64,000 nucleotides of DNA from an uncultured Bacteroidales bacterium (GTDB taxonomy: Bacteria; Bacteroidota; Bacteroidia; Bacteroidales; UBA932): the NCBI GenBank assembly GCA_944326265.1, contig CALVDE010000002.1, forward strand, positions 124,001 through 188,000. The letters are read 5' to 3'. The position numbers and the translations under genes were made by a program. Positions 14,208-20,133 of this stretch are shown piece after piece; position 1 is the stretch's first letter, and each line of letters starts with the position of its first letter. Below the pieces are notes generated by a model. It saw only the letters and a list, made by a program, of their open reading frames with translations, was not told the origin of the DNA and searched no databases.

Positions 14208-14774
14208 CTACTTCACTCTCTCACCGTAGCTGCGGTCAGTTGTGTTGACGCGGATCCTGTCACCCTGGTTGATGAACAGGGGCACCATGATCTCGGCGCC
14301 GGTCTCCAGCGTAGCGGCCTTGAGAGCATTGCTGGAAGCCGTATCGCCCTTGACTGCCGGCTCGGTATAGGTAACCTCAAGCTCGACGTAAGTGGGAAGC
14401 TCGCATGTCAGGCACTTCTCCTCGTCAGCCAGGAACATCATCTCCACATACTGTCCCTCCTTCATGAGATCGGCGTTCTCCACCATCTCCTCGGGAATGC
14501 TTACCTGCTCGTATGTCTCGGTATGCATGAAGTTGTAGCCCATGTCATCCTTGTAGAGATACTGGTAAGGTCTCCTCTCCACATTGATAGGCTCGATCTT
14601 CTCTCCTGCCGTAAACGTGCGGTCAAGAATCTTGCCGTTCTCAAGATTGCGTAATTTTGTCTTCACGAAAGCCGGGCCCTTGCCGGGTTTCACATGCTGG
14701 AACCAGATGATGGACACTGGTTTGCCCTCATAATTGAAATAAAGTCCGTTTTTGAAATCTGCTGTTGTTGCCAT
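14208..14774 (-). CDS. efp: Translation elongation factor P
   Basis: Factor that relieves ribosome stalling at polyproline. The 188-residue length is normal. The three beta-barrel domains are recognisable: N-terminal KOW-like domain with the loop PGKGPAFVKTKLRNL, in which the residue at the modification position is Lys (in GKGPAF); a central domain with RPYQYLYKDDMGYNFMHTETYEQ; and a C-terminal OB domain ending DRIRVNTTDRSYGERVK. Monocistronic, with its own -7 box at 14819-14826. No EF-P modification enzyme gene is seen nearby. Confidence 0.96.
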   Translation of the reverse strand: MATTADFKNGLYFNYEGKPVSIIWFQHVKPGKGPAFVKTKLRNLENGKILDRTFTAGEKIEPINVERRPYQYLYKDDMGYNFMHTETYEQVSIPEEMVENADLMKEGQYVEMMFLADEEKCLTCELPTYVELEVTYTEPAVKGDTASSNALKAATLETGAEIMVPLFINQGDRIRVNTTDRSYGERVK

Positions 14775-14831: not shown

Positions 14832-16220
14832 TTAAGACACAATAGTGTCAACAAGCTGATACAGGACAGTCCGCGCCATATACCTTGAAGCCGCCCGTTC
14901 CGAGACAGCCATGCTCCTGCGGAATGAGTCCATGTCGTCACTTGAGAGAGGTTCGGCCGGAGGCGACTCCATCTTGAGCGGATTAATCGGTGTTCCGTTC
15001 TTCCAGATCCGGAAGTCCAGATGAGGGCCTGTGGAATATCCGGTGCTGCCCACATATCCGATGACCTGACCCTGACGGACGCGGTCACCCACACTGAGCC
15101 CCTTGGCATAACGCGACAGATGCAGATATGCCGAAGTGTAGACAGAATTGTGCTTGATCTTTATCATGTTGCCCTCAGCTGTCTTGTATCCCTTGTACAC
15201 CACCACTCCGTCACCGATGCTCATAACCTCCGTACCGGCCGGAGCCGCATAATCGATACCGGTATGCGGACGTACTTTTCTGGTTATCGGATGCCGCCTG
15301 TGATACGTGAATCCGGAACTGATCCTGGTATAGCTCAGAGGAGCTCTCAGAAATGCCTTGCGCATACTCTCCCCCTTCTCGTTCCAGTAATAATTGCCGC
15401 TTCCGTCATCGAACCAGTAGCACTTGTATGACTCGCCCCCGTGCGTGAACTCGGCATAGAGGACCTTCTCCACATCCAGCACTTCTCCGTCACACACAGT
15501 CTTCTCGTACACGGCCTTGAAGGAATCACCCTTCTGCAGGCCGAAGAAGTCTATGCTCCACGCATATATATCCGCCAATGAGACCGCAAGGAGAGCCGGT
15601 GCCCCGGCATCGATTATATCCTGCCACAGGGAATTCTCGATGCTCACCTCCACATAGTCGGTGACACTGGTGATGTCTTTCTCATACACGTTGACCGACA
15701 GCGAGTCTCTCAGCGTGAACACCACGTATGAGGCATTGTCCTTCTCATAGACCACATAAGCGAGAGTGTCCGGCTCAGTCAGAGTGTAGTAGGCATGGTA
15801 GTGATACCCGACCTTTATCTGCCTCATGTCAAAGACACCCTTTGAAAGAGCGTCCAGAGCATATATGTCGTTCTGCGAGGCTCCCAGCCTGGTCATCAGG
15901 GTCGAGAAAAACTCTCCCCGGCGGATCGTCCCTTCCTCTTTGCGGTACCTGGATATAGGGATGTTGTACTCGTAGACCTCCTCCTCACCGCAGCGGTCCG
16001 GTGATCCTGCCTCCGCCGGCATATCCCCGCGTCCTGCCGGAGACTCCACCGTCTCCGCCTCCCGCACGGCCGGACCTTTCTCTCTTTCCGGAACAGAGCG
16101 GAAGATATATATTCCCAGCAGCACCGCGAACTCCACCGCCAGAACACCCAGCACACCTGCCATTATACCGTGAACAAACCTGTCAGTCAGTATTTTCTCT
16201 TTCAGTTTATCTAGATTCAT
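14832..16220 (-). CDS. Membrane-anchored M23 (LytM-type) metallopeptidase
   Basis: 462-residue cell-wall endopeptidase candidate. A short basic N-terminus precedes one transmembrane helix (~residues 18-40, GIMAGVLGVLAVEFAVLLGIYIF). A periplasmic region of ~250 residues follows, including segments resembling the OapA/LysM-like domain of MepM-type peptidases. The M23 domain (~300-430) has the zinc ligands in RPHTGIDYA (HxxxD) and GPHLDFRIW (HxH-type), with the expected GTEVMSIGDGVV and VRQGQVIGYVGSTG. It should cleave peptidoglycan cross-links. Divergent from mraZ; the shared 106-nt gap carries four 10-bp repeats that may be an MraZ operator. Its -7 box ends 4 nt before the ATG. Confidence 0.92.
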   Translation of the reverse strand: MNLDKLKEKILTDRFVHGIMAGVLGVLAVEFAVLLGIYIFRSVPEREKGPAVREAETVESPAGRGDMPAEAGSPDRCGEEEVYEYNIPISRYRKEEGTIRRGEFFSTLMTRLGASQNDIYALDALSKGVFDMRQIKVGYHYHAYYTLTEPDTLAYVVYEKDNASYVVFTLRDSLSVNVYEKDITSVTDYVEVSIENSLWQDIIDAGAPALLAVSLADIYAWSIDFFGLQKGDSFKAVYEKTVCDGEVLDVEKVLYAEFTHGGESYKCYWFDDGSGNYYWNEKGESMRKAFLRAPLSYTRISSGFTYHRRHPITRKVRPHTGIDYAAPAGTEVMSIGDGVVVYKGYKTAEGNMIKIKHNSVYTSAYLHLSRYAKGLSVGDRVRQGQVIGYVGSTGYSTGPHLDFRIWKNGTPINPLKMESPPAEPLSSDDMDSFRRSMAVSERAASRYMARTVLYQLVDTIVS

Positions 16221-16224
16221 AGTA

Positions 16225-16232
16225 CAAATTTA
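16225..16232 (-). promoter_or_regulatory. -7 box for the M23 peptidase, almost abutting the start codon
   Basis: On the minus strand TAAATTTG is a full TAnnTTTG match; only TACT separates it from the ATG at 16220. Its -33 position would fall near 16252, inside the first 10-bp repeat of the candidate MraZ operator. Confidence 0.6.
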
Positions 16233-16249
16233 GAAAAGAATTCCAAATT

Positions 16250-16289
16250 GTGGAAAAAAATGTAAAAAAGTGGAAAATTATGTAAGAAT
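16250..16289. promoter_or_regulatory. Four 10-bp direct repeats, candidate MraZ operator
   Basis: Consecutive units GTGGAAAAAA, ATGTAAAAAA, GTGGAAAATT and ATGTAAGAAT give TGKAA four times at exact 10-bp spacing. MraZ of Escherichia coli is known to bind TGGGN repeats with 5-bp spacers, that is the same 10-bp period. The array ends 6 bp before the mraZ -7 box and covers the -33 zones of both mraZ and the divergent M23 peptidase gene. Binding is inferred, not shown. Confidence 0.6.
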
Positions 16290-16295
16290 TTTAGC

Positions 16296-16303
16296 TATTT
16301 TTG
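16296..16303 (+). promoter_or_regulatory. -7 box of the dcw cluster (mraZ promoter)
   Basis: TATTTTTG is a full TAnnTTTG match, 23 nt before the mraZ ATG at 16327. It would be the main promoter of the 15-kb division and cell-wall cluster and lies directly downstream of the 10-bp repeats. Confidence 0.65.
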
Positions 16304-16326: not shown

Positions 16327-16773
16327 ATGATCAGGTTCATAGGCGAATACAAGGCACGGACGGACGACAGGGGGCGGCTGGTTTTCCCCTCTGCATTCAA
16401 GGCCATGACAGGCCCTGAGGAGCCTGTACGGCTCGTTGTCAAGAAAAGCCTGTTTTCTCCATGCCTGGACATCTACACCTACGGAGAGTGGGAGAAAGAG
16501 GCCGAGGAGCTTAAGGCCCGGCTCAATTTCTTCAACAGGGGACATGCCGCCCTGTGGAGGGGATACATGAGCGGCAGGGCGGTCGTGGAGCCTGACGGCA
16601 AACTTGGAAGGATATCCATCCCCAGGCAGCTGCTGGAGAGTGCCGGAATCGGCAAGGAAGCCGTGTTTGTAGGCGCAGGACACAAGATCGAACTGTGGGC
16701 ACGTGACAGATACGAGAGCTCCGTTATCAGCGACGAGGACTATGTCGCTCTAGCCGAGGAAATATTAGGATAA
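16327..16773 (+). CDS. mraZ: Transcriptional regulator MraZ
   Basis: Double-AbrB-fold DNA-binding protein that represses the dcw cluster in characterised bacteria. From ATG 16327 it has 148 residues and begins MIRFIGEYKARTDDRGRLVFPSAFK, the typical first SpoVT/AbrB domain; the second appears as the duplicated motif VEPDGKLGRISIPRQLLE. A longer reading from GTG at 16270 is rejected because it would start upstream of the -7 box. It opens the dcw cluster, with rsmH 21 nt downstream. Autoregulation through the repeats at 16250-16289 is likely. Confidence 0.95.
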   Translation: MIRFIGEYKARTDDRGRLVFPSAFKAMTGPEEPVRLVVKKSLFSPCLDIYTYGEWEKEAEELKARLNFFNRGHAALWRGYMSGRAVVEPDGKLGRISIPRQLLESAGIGKEAVFVGAGHKIELWARDRYESSVISDEDYVALAEEILG

Positions 16774-16794: not shown

Positions 16795-17706
16795 ATGTCA
16801 GCAGTATACCATACGCCGGTGTTGCTCAAGGAGAGCGTCGGGATGCTGGGGATCAGACCCTCGGGCATCTATGTCGATGCCACGCTCGGAGGAGGCGGCC
16901 ACAGCCGCGCCATCCTTTCTGAGCTCGGTCCCGACGGCAGACTCATCGTCTTCGACCAGGACAGGGACGCGATGGCAAACGCGCCGTCAGACAGCCGGGT
17001 TACAGCCGTCAGGGCGAATTTCAGGTTCATCCATCATTTCCTGCACTACATGGGGATAGACGGCGTGGACGGGATTCTGGCCGACCTCGGTGTATCCTCG
17101 CACCAGTTCGACACCCCGGAAAGAGGCTTCTCGTTCAGATTCGACTCCTCGCTGGACATGAGGATGAACACATCCTCCTCCGAAAGTGCCGCACATCTGC
17201 TGAACACCTGCTCCGAAGACAGGCTGGCCGACATACTGCGCCTCTACGGAGAAGTGGATGGAAGCAGGAGGGCATCCGCCCTTATCTGCCGCGCCAGGGA
17301 GAAGGCTCCCATCCAGACCACAGCCGACCTCAACAAAGCCTTGGAGACGATCCTGCCGCCCGTCGCGCCACACAAATTCCTGGCCAAGGTATACCAGGCT
17401 CTCAGAATTGAGGTGAACGGGGAGATGAGGAGCCTTGTCCGGCTTCTGGACGGCATCAGGGACTCTCTCAAGCCATCAGGCACAGCCGTGATCATCACTT
17501 ACCACTCACTGGAAGACAGGATGGTCAAGAATTTCTTCAAGACAGGCAACGTCAACGGAACATATACCGCAGACCTCTACGGACGCAGAAGCACCCCTTT
17601 TACGGTCATCACCAGGAAGCCTATCCTCCCGGGCGGGAACGAGGTGGCCGGCAACACGAGGGCCAGAAGCGCGAAACTCCGGGCGGCACGGCGCACCGAA
17701 TCATGA
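16795..17706 (+). CDS. rsmH: 16S rRNA (cytosine-1402-N4)-methyltransferase RsmH
   Basis: SAM-dependent methyltransferase acting on C1402 in the ribosomal P site. The 303-residue protein begins with the family signature YHTPVLLKESVGML, has the SAM motif VDATLGGGGHSRAIL, the catalytic-region motif GILADLGVSSHQFD, ERGFSFR and the C-terminal YHSLEDRMVKNFF. Near the end RSAKLRAA is also typical. Second gene of the dcw cluster; its stop overlaps the start of the FtsL-like gene by 4 nt, suggesting translational coupling. Confidence 0.97.
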   Translation: MSAVYHTPVLLKESVGMLGIRPSGIYVDATLGGGGHSRAILSELGPDGRLIVFDQDRDAMANAPSDSRVTAVRANFRFIHHFLHYMGIDGVDGILADLGVSSHQFDTPERGFSFRFDSSLDMRMNTSSSESAAHLLNTCSEDRLADILRLYGEVDGSRRASALICRAREKAPIQTTADLNKALETILPPVAPHKFLAKVYQALRIEVNGEMRSLVRLLDGIRDSLKPSGTAVIITYHSLEDRMVKNFFKTGNVNGTYTADLYGRRSTPFTVITRKPILPGGNEVAGNTRARSAKLRAARRTES

Positions 17707-18026
17707 ACGTAAGGATTCTTGAGAACATTCTGGGAGGACAGATTCTGGCAAAAGGCAGCCTGACCAGGCAGTGGAGATTCATCCTGTACGTCTTCCTGCT
17801 GGTAATACTTTACATAAGCCTGCACTTCTGGACGCGCAACACCATGCAGACCAAGACGCGAAACGAGGAGATTATCCGCAACCTCCGTTCCGAATACATG
17901 GGCAAGTACACCAGGCTGCTCCATACCGGCAAGAGAGGCGAGATTGAAAAACTACTCGAGGACAACGGACTGAGTCTCATTCCGCCCCAGTCCCCTCCCA
18001 CGAGAATAAAACTGAAGGAGGACTGA
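17703..18026 (+). CDS. FtsL-like cell division protein
   Basis: 107-residue bitopic membrane protein in the ftsL position of the dcw cluster. A ~25-residue cytoplasmic stretch precedes a single transmembrane helix (WRFILYVFLLVILYISLHFW, residues ~24-43), followed by a short coiled-coil-prone periplasmic region with heptad-like charged residues (RNEEIIRNLRSEYMGKY) and a C-terminus rich in Pro. This is the layout of FtsL, which forms the divisome FtsQ-L-B complex. Sequence similarity to proteobacterial FtsL is low, as is usual in Bacteroidetes, so the call rests on topology and location. Confidence 0.85.
   Translation: MNVRILENILGGQILAKGSLTRQWRFILYVFLLVILYISLHFWTRNTMQTKTRNEEIIRNLRSEYMGKYTRLLHTGKRGEIEKLLEDNGLSLIPPQSPPTRIKLKED
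18016..18021 (+). promoter_or_regulatory. Shine-Dalgarno AGGAGG before ftsI
   Basis: AGGAGG sits 6 nt before the ftsI ATG, inside the end of the FtsL-like gene. Strong Shine-Dalgarno sites are uncommon in Bacteroidetes, so this supports efficient internal initiation within the cluster. Confidence 0.6.
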
Positions 18027-18027
18027 C

Positions 18028-20133
18028 ATGAGCGGAGCCAGAAGCACATTCAAGCGTTTTCTTTACGTCTACGTCCTGTTTCTGGTGGCCGGAGCGGCTG
18101 CCATAGGCCGGATAATCGCCGTCCAGACGAGCAGGGACCGCGTGACTGCGGAAGACATCTACAAGGAGCAGGTGCTCATGCCCTCCAGGGGAAGCATTCT
18201 CTCCTATGACGGCCGCCCGCTGGCCGTATCGATACCCGTATACCAGCTGCACTGGGATTCGGAGGCCATGTCCCGCGAGACCCTGATGTCCGGCATCGAC
18301 TCCCTGTCGCTGTGCCTGTCGCAGCTGTTCGGGGACAAGAGTGCGTCCCGCTACAGGAAAGACCTTCTGCAGGCCAGGAAAGACGGCAAGCGGTACTACA
18401 GGATAGGCAACCGCGACGTTGATTTCGGAGAACTGGAAGAGGTGCGCGGTTTCCCTATATTCAGGCTCGGACAGTTCAAGGGAGGCCTGATTGCAGACAC
18501 CAGAAGCGACCGGATCAATCCTTACGGGAAACTTGCGGACAGGACCATAGGCTATCTCAACGCCGACGGGGGCGGAACCGGCATAGAATACACCTACGAC
18601 TACAGACTCAGGGGTGAAAAGGGCATACAGACGGTGCACCGCAGCCTTGGAGGACAGTGGATTCCCGTGAACGGAGCTCCGGCCGAACCGGCCGTGGACG
18701 GCTGCGACATAAGGACCACGATAGACGTGAGGATCCAGGAGGCCGCAGAGACCGAGCTCCGGGCACAGCTTGCCATGAGCGACGTATTCGAGGGCGGCAC
18801 CGCAGTAGTCATGGATGTCGCCACAGGGGCAGTAAGGGGCATAGCCAACATGTTCAAGAAAAGCGACGGCTCATTCGACGAGTCCTACAACTACGCCATA
18901 GCCCACGCCACGGAACCCGGGTCCACACTCAAACTTGCAGCACTCACCGCCATGATAGAGGACGGATGCATCACACTGGACACCGAAGTGGACGGAGGAG
19001 ACGGAATCTGGTACTACGGAGGAGTCAGGATCACCGACACTCACAGAGGGGGGTACGGCAAGATGACTGCCCTCGAGGCTTTCGAGAAATCCTCCAATAT
19101 CGCATTTGCGAAGATGATCACCGAGTCATACGGAGACAATCCATCGGCATACGTGTCCAGGCTGCACAGCATGAAACTTATGGAAAAGCTCAGTCTCGAC
19201 ATCGGCGGAGAAGGCTACGCCTACATCACCAGCCCGGACGACCCTCAGTGGTCAATGTCCACCCTGGCCAGCCTCGGCTACGGATATGCGGTAACCCTGA
19301 CACCGCTCCACATACTGACCTTCTACAACGCCGTAGCCAACGGCGGAAAGATGATGAGACCCTACTTCATCGAAGATTTTGAAAGAGACGGCATAACTGT
19401 CGAACAGCTGGGGCCCTCGGTGGTGAGCGGATCCATCTGCTCCAAGAGCACTCTGGCAGCAGTCCGGAAAGCCCTGCGCGGTGTCGTCGAGAACGGAACA
19501 GCCAAGAACTGCAACGACCCCAGATACGCCATAGCCGGAAAGACCGGCACTGCGAAAGTCGCTGAGAACGGCCGCTACGAGGACGAGCACGGATACCGCA
19601 GATACCAGGCCTCGTTCGCAGGCTACTTCCCGGCCGACGATCCTAAATATTCCTGCATAGTCGTGCTCTACACGGGAAAGACCAGGGGGGATTTCTACGG
19701 AGCCACGTGGGCGGCACCCGTGTTCAAGCGCATAGCGGACAAGATCTACACCTCACACCCTGAATGGAACAGTCCGGTGAGCTCAAAAGGCGCGGTTCCT
19801 CCGGACAATCCCAGAATCGCCTCGGGCCTGGCCGGCAGGAACGGTATGCCGGTAGACTATCTGCCCATGAACTCAAGGCCGCAGACAGGCAAGGCCGGCT
19901 GGATACAGGTCAGACAGGGAGAGGACGGAGAGCCGCCGGCAGTAAGCAGCCTGACAATAGAGCAGGGTACGGTCCCCGACGTAAGGGGCATGGGACTCAA
20001 GGACGCGCTCTATCTGCTGGAAAATGAGGGATACCGCGTCACCTTCAGCGGATCCGGCCGCGTAAGGACCCAGACACCGGAAGCCGGAAGCGGGCTCGCC
20101 AGGGGAGGCAGGATAACATTGGAATTAAAATAG
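18028..20133 (+). CDS. ftsI: Division transpeptidase PBP3 with C-terminal PASTA domain
   Basis: 701-residue class B penicillin-binding protein that cross-links septal peptidoglycan. One N-terminal transmembrane helix (~residues 10-32) leads to a dimerisation/pedestal domain (RGSILSYDGRPLAVS) and the transpeptidase domain with SxxK at Ser299 (STLK), SSN in FEKSSNIAF and KTGT in AGKTGTAK. The last ~60 residues (VPDVRGMGLKDALYLLENEG and on) form one PASTA domain. PASTA on FtsI is common in Bacteroidetes and is thought to bind wall fragments. It partners FtsW encoded 4 kb downstream. Confidence 0.96.
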   Translation: MSGARSTFKRFLYVYVLFLVAGAAAIGRIIAVQTSRDRVTAEDIYKEQVLMPSRGSILSYDGRPLAVSIPVYQLHWDSEAMSRETLMSGIDSLSLCLSQLFGDKSASRYRKDLLQARKDGKRYYRIGNRDVDFGELEEVRGFPIFRLGQFKGGLIADTRSDRINPYGKLADRTIGYLNADGGGTGIEYTYDYRLRGEKGIQTVHRSLGGQWIPVNGAPAEPAVDGCDIRTTIDVRIQEAAETELRAQLAMSDVFEGGTAVVMDVATGAVRGIANMFKKSDGSFDESYNYAIAHATEPGSTLKLAALTAMIEDGCITLDTEVDGGDGIWYYGGVRITDTHRGGYGKMTALEAFEKSSNIAFAKMITESYGDNPSAYVSRLHSMKLMEKLSLDIGGEGYAYITSPDDPQWSMSTLASLGYGYAVTLTPLHILTFYNAVANGGKMMRPYFIEDFERDGITVEQLGPSVVSGSICSKSTLAAVRKALRGVVENGTAKNCNDPRYAIAGKTGTAKVAENGRYEDEHGYRRYQASFAGYFPADDPKYSCIVVLYTGKTRGDFYGATWAAPVFKRIADKIYTSHPEWNSPVSSKGAVPPDNPRIASGLAGRNGMPVDYLPMNSRPQTGKAGWIQVRQGEDGEPPAVSSLTIEQGTVPDVRGMGLKDALYLLENEGYRVTFSGSGRVRTQTPEAGSGLARGGRITLELK

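Follow-up and report, generated by a model that had tools for sequence, protein, structure and literature searches.

Introduction

The regulator MraZ is conserved very widely among bacteria. Its boxes in Escherichia coli are reportedly the subject of work by Eraso et al. in 2014; in E. coli K-12, used here as a positive control, the region upstream of mraZ contains GTGGGaaattGTGGGgcaaaGTGGG, that is, GTGGG three times at a spacing of 10 bp.

The other described sites are those of the Mollicutes. In excerpts of a study of these bacteria (PMC8475190) the MraZ site is given as AAAGTG[T/G], MraZ is called a repressor in E. coli, with a repressor role also in M. genitalium, and filamentation of M. 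gallisepticum is said to be accompanied by increased FtsZ. A solved structure, 9sz7, bears the title 'CryoEM structure of MraZ in complex with 4 box promoter', and going by this title four boxes are an accepted layout for an MraZ site. Descriptions of MraZ sites that we came upon concern E. coli and the Mollicutes. A search of literature titles and abstracts, with most subscription journals outside its coverage, found no description of MraZ boxes in Bacteroidales or of a divergent promoter shared by mraZ and an M23 peptidase gene.

Here we describe a repeat array upstream of mraZ in a Bacteroidales genome. The array lies in a window of 64 kb (the whole stretch of DNA that was analysed), and is very probably the MraZ operator of the dcw cluster. 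It is an operator of a known kind with a core that is not new; what is new is the Bacteroidales example.

Results

The repeat array in the window

Four tandem repeats of 10 bp are found ahead of mraZ at 16250-16289 (Table 1). A preliminary description of this DNA had claimed these repeats, with TGKAA in each of them, and direct reading agrees, the four TGKAA starting at 16251, 16261, 16271 and 16281. The two -7 boxes that it had named are likewise present, at 16296-16303 on the plus strand and 16225-16232 on the minus strand. It was wrong, however, in having the array touch the mraZ -7 box, since six bases (16290-16295) separate them. The cores of the boxes read, in order, GTGG, ATGT, GTGG and ATGT, with an exact 10-bp period, and 37 nt lie between the end of the array and the mraZ ATG at 16327.

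Table 1 Features of the mraZ region in the window.
Feature	Position	Strand	Evidence or remark
efp, elongation factor P	14208-14774	-	PF09285, PF08207, PF01132
M23 metallopeptidase with Csd3_N2 domain, 462 aa	14832-16220	-	PF01551 4.9e-33, PF19425 1.4e-7
M23 promoter -7 box TAAATTTG	16225-16232	-	Predicted start site 16220, the A of the M23 ATG
MraZ box 1 (putative) GTGGAAAAAA	16250-16259	+	Near the -33 position of the M23 promoter
MraZ box 2 (putative) ATGTAAAAAA	16260-16269	+	Sequence reading
MraZ box 3 (putative) GTGGAAAATT	16270-16279	+	Near the -33 position of the mraZ promoter
MraZ box 4 (putative) ATGTAAGAAT	16280-16289	+	Its core is 15 nt ahead of the mraZ -7 box
mraZ promoter -7 box TATTTTTG	16296-16303	+	Primary sigma of Bacteroidota, TAnnTTTG consensus
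mraZ, 148 aa	16327-16773	+	Pfam PF02381 1.6e-15; AlphaFold2 model matches solved MraZ
rsmH (mraW)	16795-17706	+	PF01795 3.4e-89
ftsL-like	17703-18026	+	PF19579 8.5e-17
Division transpeptidase with PASTA domain	18028-20133	+	PF00905, PF03717, PF03793

Four TG[G/T] cores at 10-bp steps occur once on the plus strand of the 64-kb window, at the array itself, and nowhere on its minus strand; they did not arise once when the 150-nt upstream region was put through 20,000 dinucleotide shuffles. In the whole genome (2,356,363 bases) the stricter pattern RTGKAAN4RTGKAAN4RTGKAA has two overlapping matches, both at the array, and the reversed control of this pattern has none.

The array shares with the E. 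coli boxes the direct repeats, the 10-bp period, the position just upstream of mraZ and the A-rich spacers. It differs in that three copies of GTGGG and then GGGG are found in E. coli, whereas in the window GTGGA and ATGTA alternate, and the sigma factor of the promoter is a different one. With the Mollicutes operator (M. genitalium and M. gallisepticum) it has in common direct repeats upstream of mraZ, the TG[G/T] core and, if the title of 9sz7 is followed, the number of four boxes in the solved complex. All four boxes in the window have TG[G/T] and two have GTGG, while none has GTGGG. Unlike the Mollicutes site, two of the four are ATGT and a single one fits AAAGTG[T/G] in full (AAAGTGG at 16267-16273, an exact box of the Mollicutes type), and the array is flanked on its other side by a divergent M23 gene. 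The core had at first been presented as altered; it is not novel, since TG[G/T] is already part of the Mollicutes site as given in the excerpts of PMC8475190.

Conservation across Bacteroidales

The main sample comprised 123 regions upstream of mraZ, of which 19 are from the genus of the window, 88 from 21 other genera of its family and 16 from other families. The extended sample of 150 loci adds the 27 further loci of other families that had the best MraZ scores. The genomes came from three sets: a first one with MraZ in 51 of 59 genomes, 50 of them examined (G055 was left out); a second with MraZ in 180 of 199, 107 of them examined (the 19 of the genus and 88 spread over the listed genera); and an order-level set with MraZ in 120 of 148, which gave the 27 best-scoring new loci. 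It is worth adding that no mraZ was detected in 28 of these 148 order-level genomes, whose completeness is 90% or more. Genus g43 gave the same result for 12 of its 13 genomes, many of them being incomplete; mraZ seems to have been lost repeatedly within Bacteroidales.

At least four TG[G/T] cores at 10-bp steps are present upstream of mraZ in 103 of the 123 genomes, the mean for shuffled sequences being 0.04 (50 rounds). No locus of the 123 has as many at periods of 8, 9, 11 or 12. When the threshold is lowered to three cores, period 10 is found in 113 of these loci, period 11 in one and period 12 in 25. A stricter scoring with RTGK, requiring at least three of four boxes at 10 bp, retains 86 of 123 loci, compared with 20 for the reversed core (KGTR at 10 bp) and 2 for the complementary strand; the reversed-core count is probably raised by TGGTAA units, which contain GGTA.

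With at least three cores as the measure, arrays were found in 18/19 loci of the genus, 83/88 of the other genera of the family and 36/43 of other families (24 of the 27 further genomes among them), or 137 of 150 in total. Of the 13 loci with fewer than three cores, five are among the 88 of the family, and one of these five, G067, has no upstream sequence. The proposal that the repeats would prove to be conserved at 10-bp spacing upstream of mraZ in Bacteroidales has therefore held. Because arrays were located by their TG cores, the invariance of TG within them is there by construction, and the weight of the evidence lies in frequency, period and spacing.

Within the genus, 18 of 19 genomes have a four-core array, and TGT is the second core in as many. 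In G008, which departs from this, GGG replaces the second core and the others are at 0, 20 and 30. The exact three-box pattern has 20 matches in 13 of 35 genomes of the genus and family, all of them just before mraZ; the remaining 22 genomes lack a match because the pattern is strict. Strict alternation of TGG and TGT (third bases GTGT) is seen in 15 of the 19 genus genomes, and other genera have other orders, for example GTTG or GGGG.

In the units from other families (n=47) the commonest bases spell AAAGTGG, with A at frequencies of 0.87, 0.81 and 0.70, G at 0.74, and a last position of G (0.77) or T (0.23), the T and G between these being fixed by the search. This commonest unit is the Mollicutes site AAAGTG[T/G], as excerpted from PMC8475190, and is close to the E. 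coli GTGGG. The bases directly after the core are mixed in these families (A 0.36, then 0.51), and TG[G/T] at 10 bp is kept.

The mraZ promoter and the MraZ protein

The -7 consensus for the primary sigma factor of Bacteroidota is given as TAnnTTTG in excerpts of two papers (PMC7366714, PMC6847099), and both the mraZ and the M23 promoter conform to it. Neither has TTTG at the expected -33; this element is described, in the excerpted parts of PMC6847099, as much less evident in F. johnsoniae. The array had been said to cover the expected -33 zones of both promoters, and it does so, box 1 falling at that of M23 and box 3 at that of mraZ. Between the last core and TAnnTTT[G/A] the spacing is nearly fixed, being 13-15 nt in 114 of the 137 arrays of at least three cores. 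The same excerpts place transcription starts 4-5 nt past the -7 element (PMC6847099), and by this measure the array is predicted to cover about -19 to -58 of mraZ, with the -33 region included. Since it lies over this region, repression by occlusion is favoured as the probable sign of control.

As to the protein, homologues align to ATG 16327, which is for this reason the likely start of mraZ. A mechanical reading of open reading frames had started at GTG 16270; this was rejected, as the frame there merely extends into the repeats. The MraZ of the window is 30% identical to that of E. coli. In an alignment of nine sequences, E. coli MraZ included, D13, G16 and R17 and likewise D90, G94 and R95 are invariant, and these residues (D13/G16-R17 and D90/G94-R95) we take to be DNA contacts. 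The AlphaFold2 model, built from nine sequences, has a mean pLDDT of 85.5, and its best structural matches, 9sz7 (TMq 0.71-0.75) among them, are the MraZ proteins of M. genitalium and M. pneumoniae; 9sz7 is the structure with four boxes in its title. By the alignment with E. coli MraZ and by the fold match, both DNA-binding halves of the linked MraZ are intact. The second motif, encoded at 16594-16611 on the plus strand, reads DGKLGR, one residue more than the DGAGR of E. coli, and its length is common to most of the relatives aligned. Further downstream, we infer that the transpeptidase at 18028-20133 is FtsI-like.

The divergent M23 gene

The divergent gene encodes an enzyme that shares with the ShyA/Csd3-type M23 endopeptidases both the M23 and the Csd3_N2 domain, and its relatives in the PDB, with long matches, are 3slu, 6muk and ShyA (6u2a). 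Unlike the genes of that group, it is divergent to mraZ. The efp gene lies 57 nt downstream of it on the same strand and is possibly co-transcribed with it; regulation of M23, if there is any, could thus extend to elongation factor P.

Divergence of the M23 gene from mraZ was counted in loci with at least 700 nt upstream (genus and family, and 15 of the loci from other families). It holds for 73 of the 102 family loci, among them 18 of the 19 from the genus. In other families it is found in 0 of 42 loci (the 15 just mentioned and the 27 further ones). The arrangement is conserved in the family.

In the window's genus the M23 promoter keeps close to the array. Over all 18 genus loci with divergent M23, CAAANNTA, the -7 box of M23, starts ahead of the first TG by 26 nt in 13 genomes and by 27 nt in 5 genomes, and in 16 of the 18 it is exactly 4 nt from the ATG, so that a leaderless M23 mRNA, starting at 16220 in the window, is predicted. 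These counts are not independent, as the genomes of the genus are related. The -33 position of the M23 promoter is at about 16253, inside box 1, and in all 18 loci the array overlaps this expected -33 region. The minus strand has its nearest TTTG at 16247-16244, and the 11 nt between this and the M23 -7 box are too few for a -33 element. Loci of other genera mostly have a longer intergenic region, and in them the distance from the M23 promoter to the array varies.

Were the M23 gene selected for control by MraZ, orthologues situated away from mraZ should sometimes carry boxes. Twelve such orthologues were examined (G008, G023, G024, G026 and eight more). For two of the 12 (G059 and G078) the contig carries mraZ as well, at a distance of about 5 kb. 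An array is present at the start of none of the 12, within 200 nt upstream and 60 nt of the gene, the start codons being uncertain for some of them, and the longest run of cores there is two. The whole loci, of 3.5-4.2 kb, contain no run of more than three cores, and the three-core runs in G122 and G023 are hundreds of bases or more from gene starts. The idea of an M23 regulon with an operator independent of mraZ was rejected on the count of 0/12. In G026 the M23 orthologue is present and mraZ is not detectable. As for mraZ without an adjacent M23 gene, at least three cores are present in 24 of 28 loci from other genera of the family and in 35 of 42 from other families, counting loci with at least 700 nt upstream.

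Given that the array is missing from the 12 orthologues and is kept at mraZ without M23, control of the M23 gene would probably be a by-product of its proximity to mraZ. The orthologue result counts against a conserved membership of M23 in the MraZ regulon, and not against control within the genus. There the -33 region of M23 lies within box 1, so bound MraZ should hinder the M23 promoter as well, an effect that we regard as plausible, if somewhat doubtful.

A second element beside the array

In other Bacteroidales families a palindrome, GTTATYAAC, is found directly upstream of the first core (GTTRATAA in the family of the window). For the other families, 26 of 36 arrays have GTTnnnAAC no more than 60 nt away, compared with a mean of 0.5 after base shuffling, and in 22 of the 36 the centre of the element is 8-10 nt before the first TG. 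Across the family's other genera, GTTRATAA or TTATYAAC was seen in 27 of 82 (1.05 in base shuffles), with 22 of the centres 8-10 nt away. The window's genus has no element of this type in any of 18 loci, the window itself having none at 16225-16250, and its place is occupied by the upstream part of the M23 promoter.

GTTATYAAC is presumably one mismatch from the DnaA box TTATCCACA. The dnaA loci of 17 Bacteroidales genomes (of 18 with a DnaA match) were therefore compared over their first 1,250 nt, regions which are AT-rich. They contain 25 DnaA-box-like matches, among which TTATCAACA and TTATTAACA are the commonest with 5 each and TTATCCACA does not occur, a result with a possible bearing on the binder of GTTATYAAC. 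Pairs of TTATCMACA are present in 6 of 19 genomes, and in 2 of 19 for the reversed control. The fixed centre of GTTATYAAC would be better fitted by a symmetric site than by a DnaA box. The presence of the element suggests that the dcw cluster has another regulator.

Discussion

The identification of the array as an MraZ-type operator is supported by the conserved repeats, the 10-bp period and the promoter spacing across Bacteroidales. We infer that MraZ binds here as a single ring placed on four successive boxes, on one face of the DNA. By lying over the -33 region it would repress mraZ and the genes downstream, giving negative autoregulation. In the window's genus, where the M23 promoter stands back to back with that of mraZ and has its -33 position in box 1, the same bound MraZ would hinder it.

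Other explanations for the repeats themselves have to be considered. The units are A-rich, and according to the excerpts of PMC6847099 there are promoters in F. johnsoniae with AT-rich motifs separated by one helical turn, at -18 and -28; the repeats could on this basis be helically phased A-tracts and nothing else, acting by promoter curvature or as an UP-like element. This is very improbable. In other families the A's after the core have been lost and TG[G/T] at 10 bp has been kept, which makes curvature alone unlikely and is why it was rejected as the whole explanation, and in 35 genomes the exact three-box pattern is found only at mraZ. There is similarly little chance that a regulator other than MraZ binds the repeats, for example one that acts together with the adjacent GTTATYAAC. 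LexA has been reported at an mraZ homologue from a gut metagenome, at a Firmicutes-type site and by gel shift with B. subtilis LexA (excerpts of PMC3998124), and in other families the conserved element at 8-10 nt before the first core means that more than one protein may act there. Nevertheless, core, period, copy number and position all match the characterised MraZ sites, and the array stays with mraZ rather than with the neighbouring gene.

The operator reading leaves the role of the M23 gene to be weighed. It is an even question whether the operator serves mraZ and the dcw cluster only, the overlap with the M23 promoter being a matter of genome compaction and any effect of MraZ on it negligible or unselected. 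That the array persists at loci without an adjacent M23 gene (24/28 and 35/42), that it is absent from the starts of all 12 distant orthologues, and that the position of the M23 promoter varies between genera are all as this would predict. Against it, all 18 loci of a genus in which MraZ identity falls to 54% have the M23 -7 box 26-27 nt from the first core, and 73 of 102 family loci have the divergent linkage. A more far-reaching proposal, and an unlikely one as a whole, is that within the genus one MraZ ring shuts both the dcw promoter and that of the leaderless M23 gene, with efp behind it, and that in other families GTTATYAAC serves a second division regulator placed in register with MraZ. 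If true, septal wall synthesis and wall cutting would rise and fall together under one division switch. The shared divergent promoter of the genus, if functional, would likewise tie peptidoglycan synthesis to hydrolysis.

For the operator itself, the comparison gives a Bacteroidales consensus of AAARTG[G/T] in 3-4 copies, with the last core 13-15 nt before the -7 box. With this consensus, control by MraZ can be tested in a phylum whose sigma factor is different.

The M23 enzyme offers one further observation. Its C-terminal metal motif is GPHLD(F/Y) in 30 of 30 orthologues, and GPHLH in two aligned solved relatives. The orthologues have HxD where these have HxH, and the third zinc ligand of the enzyme may be Asp.
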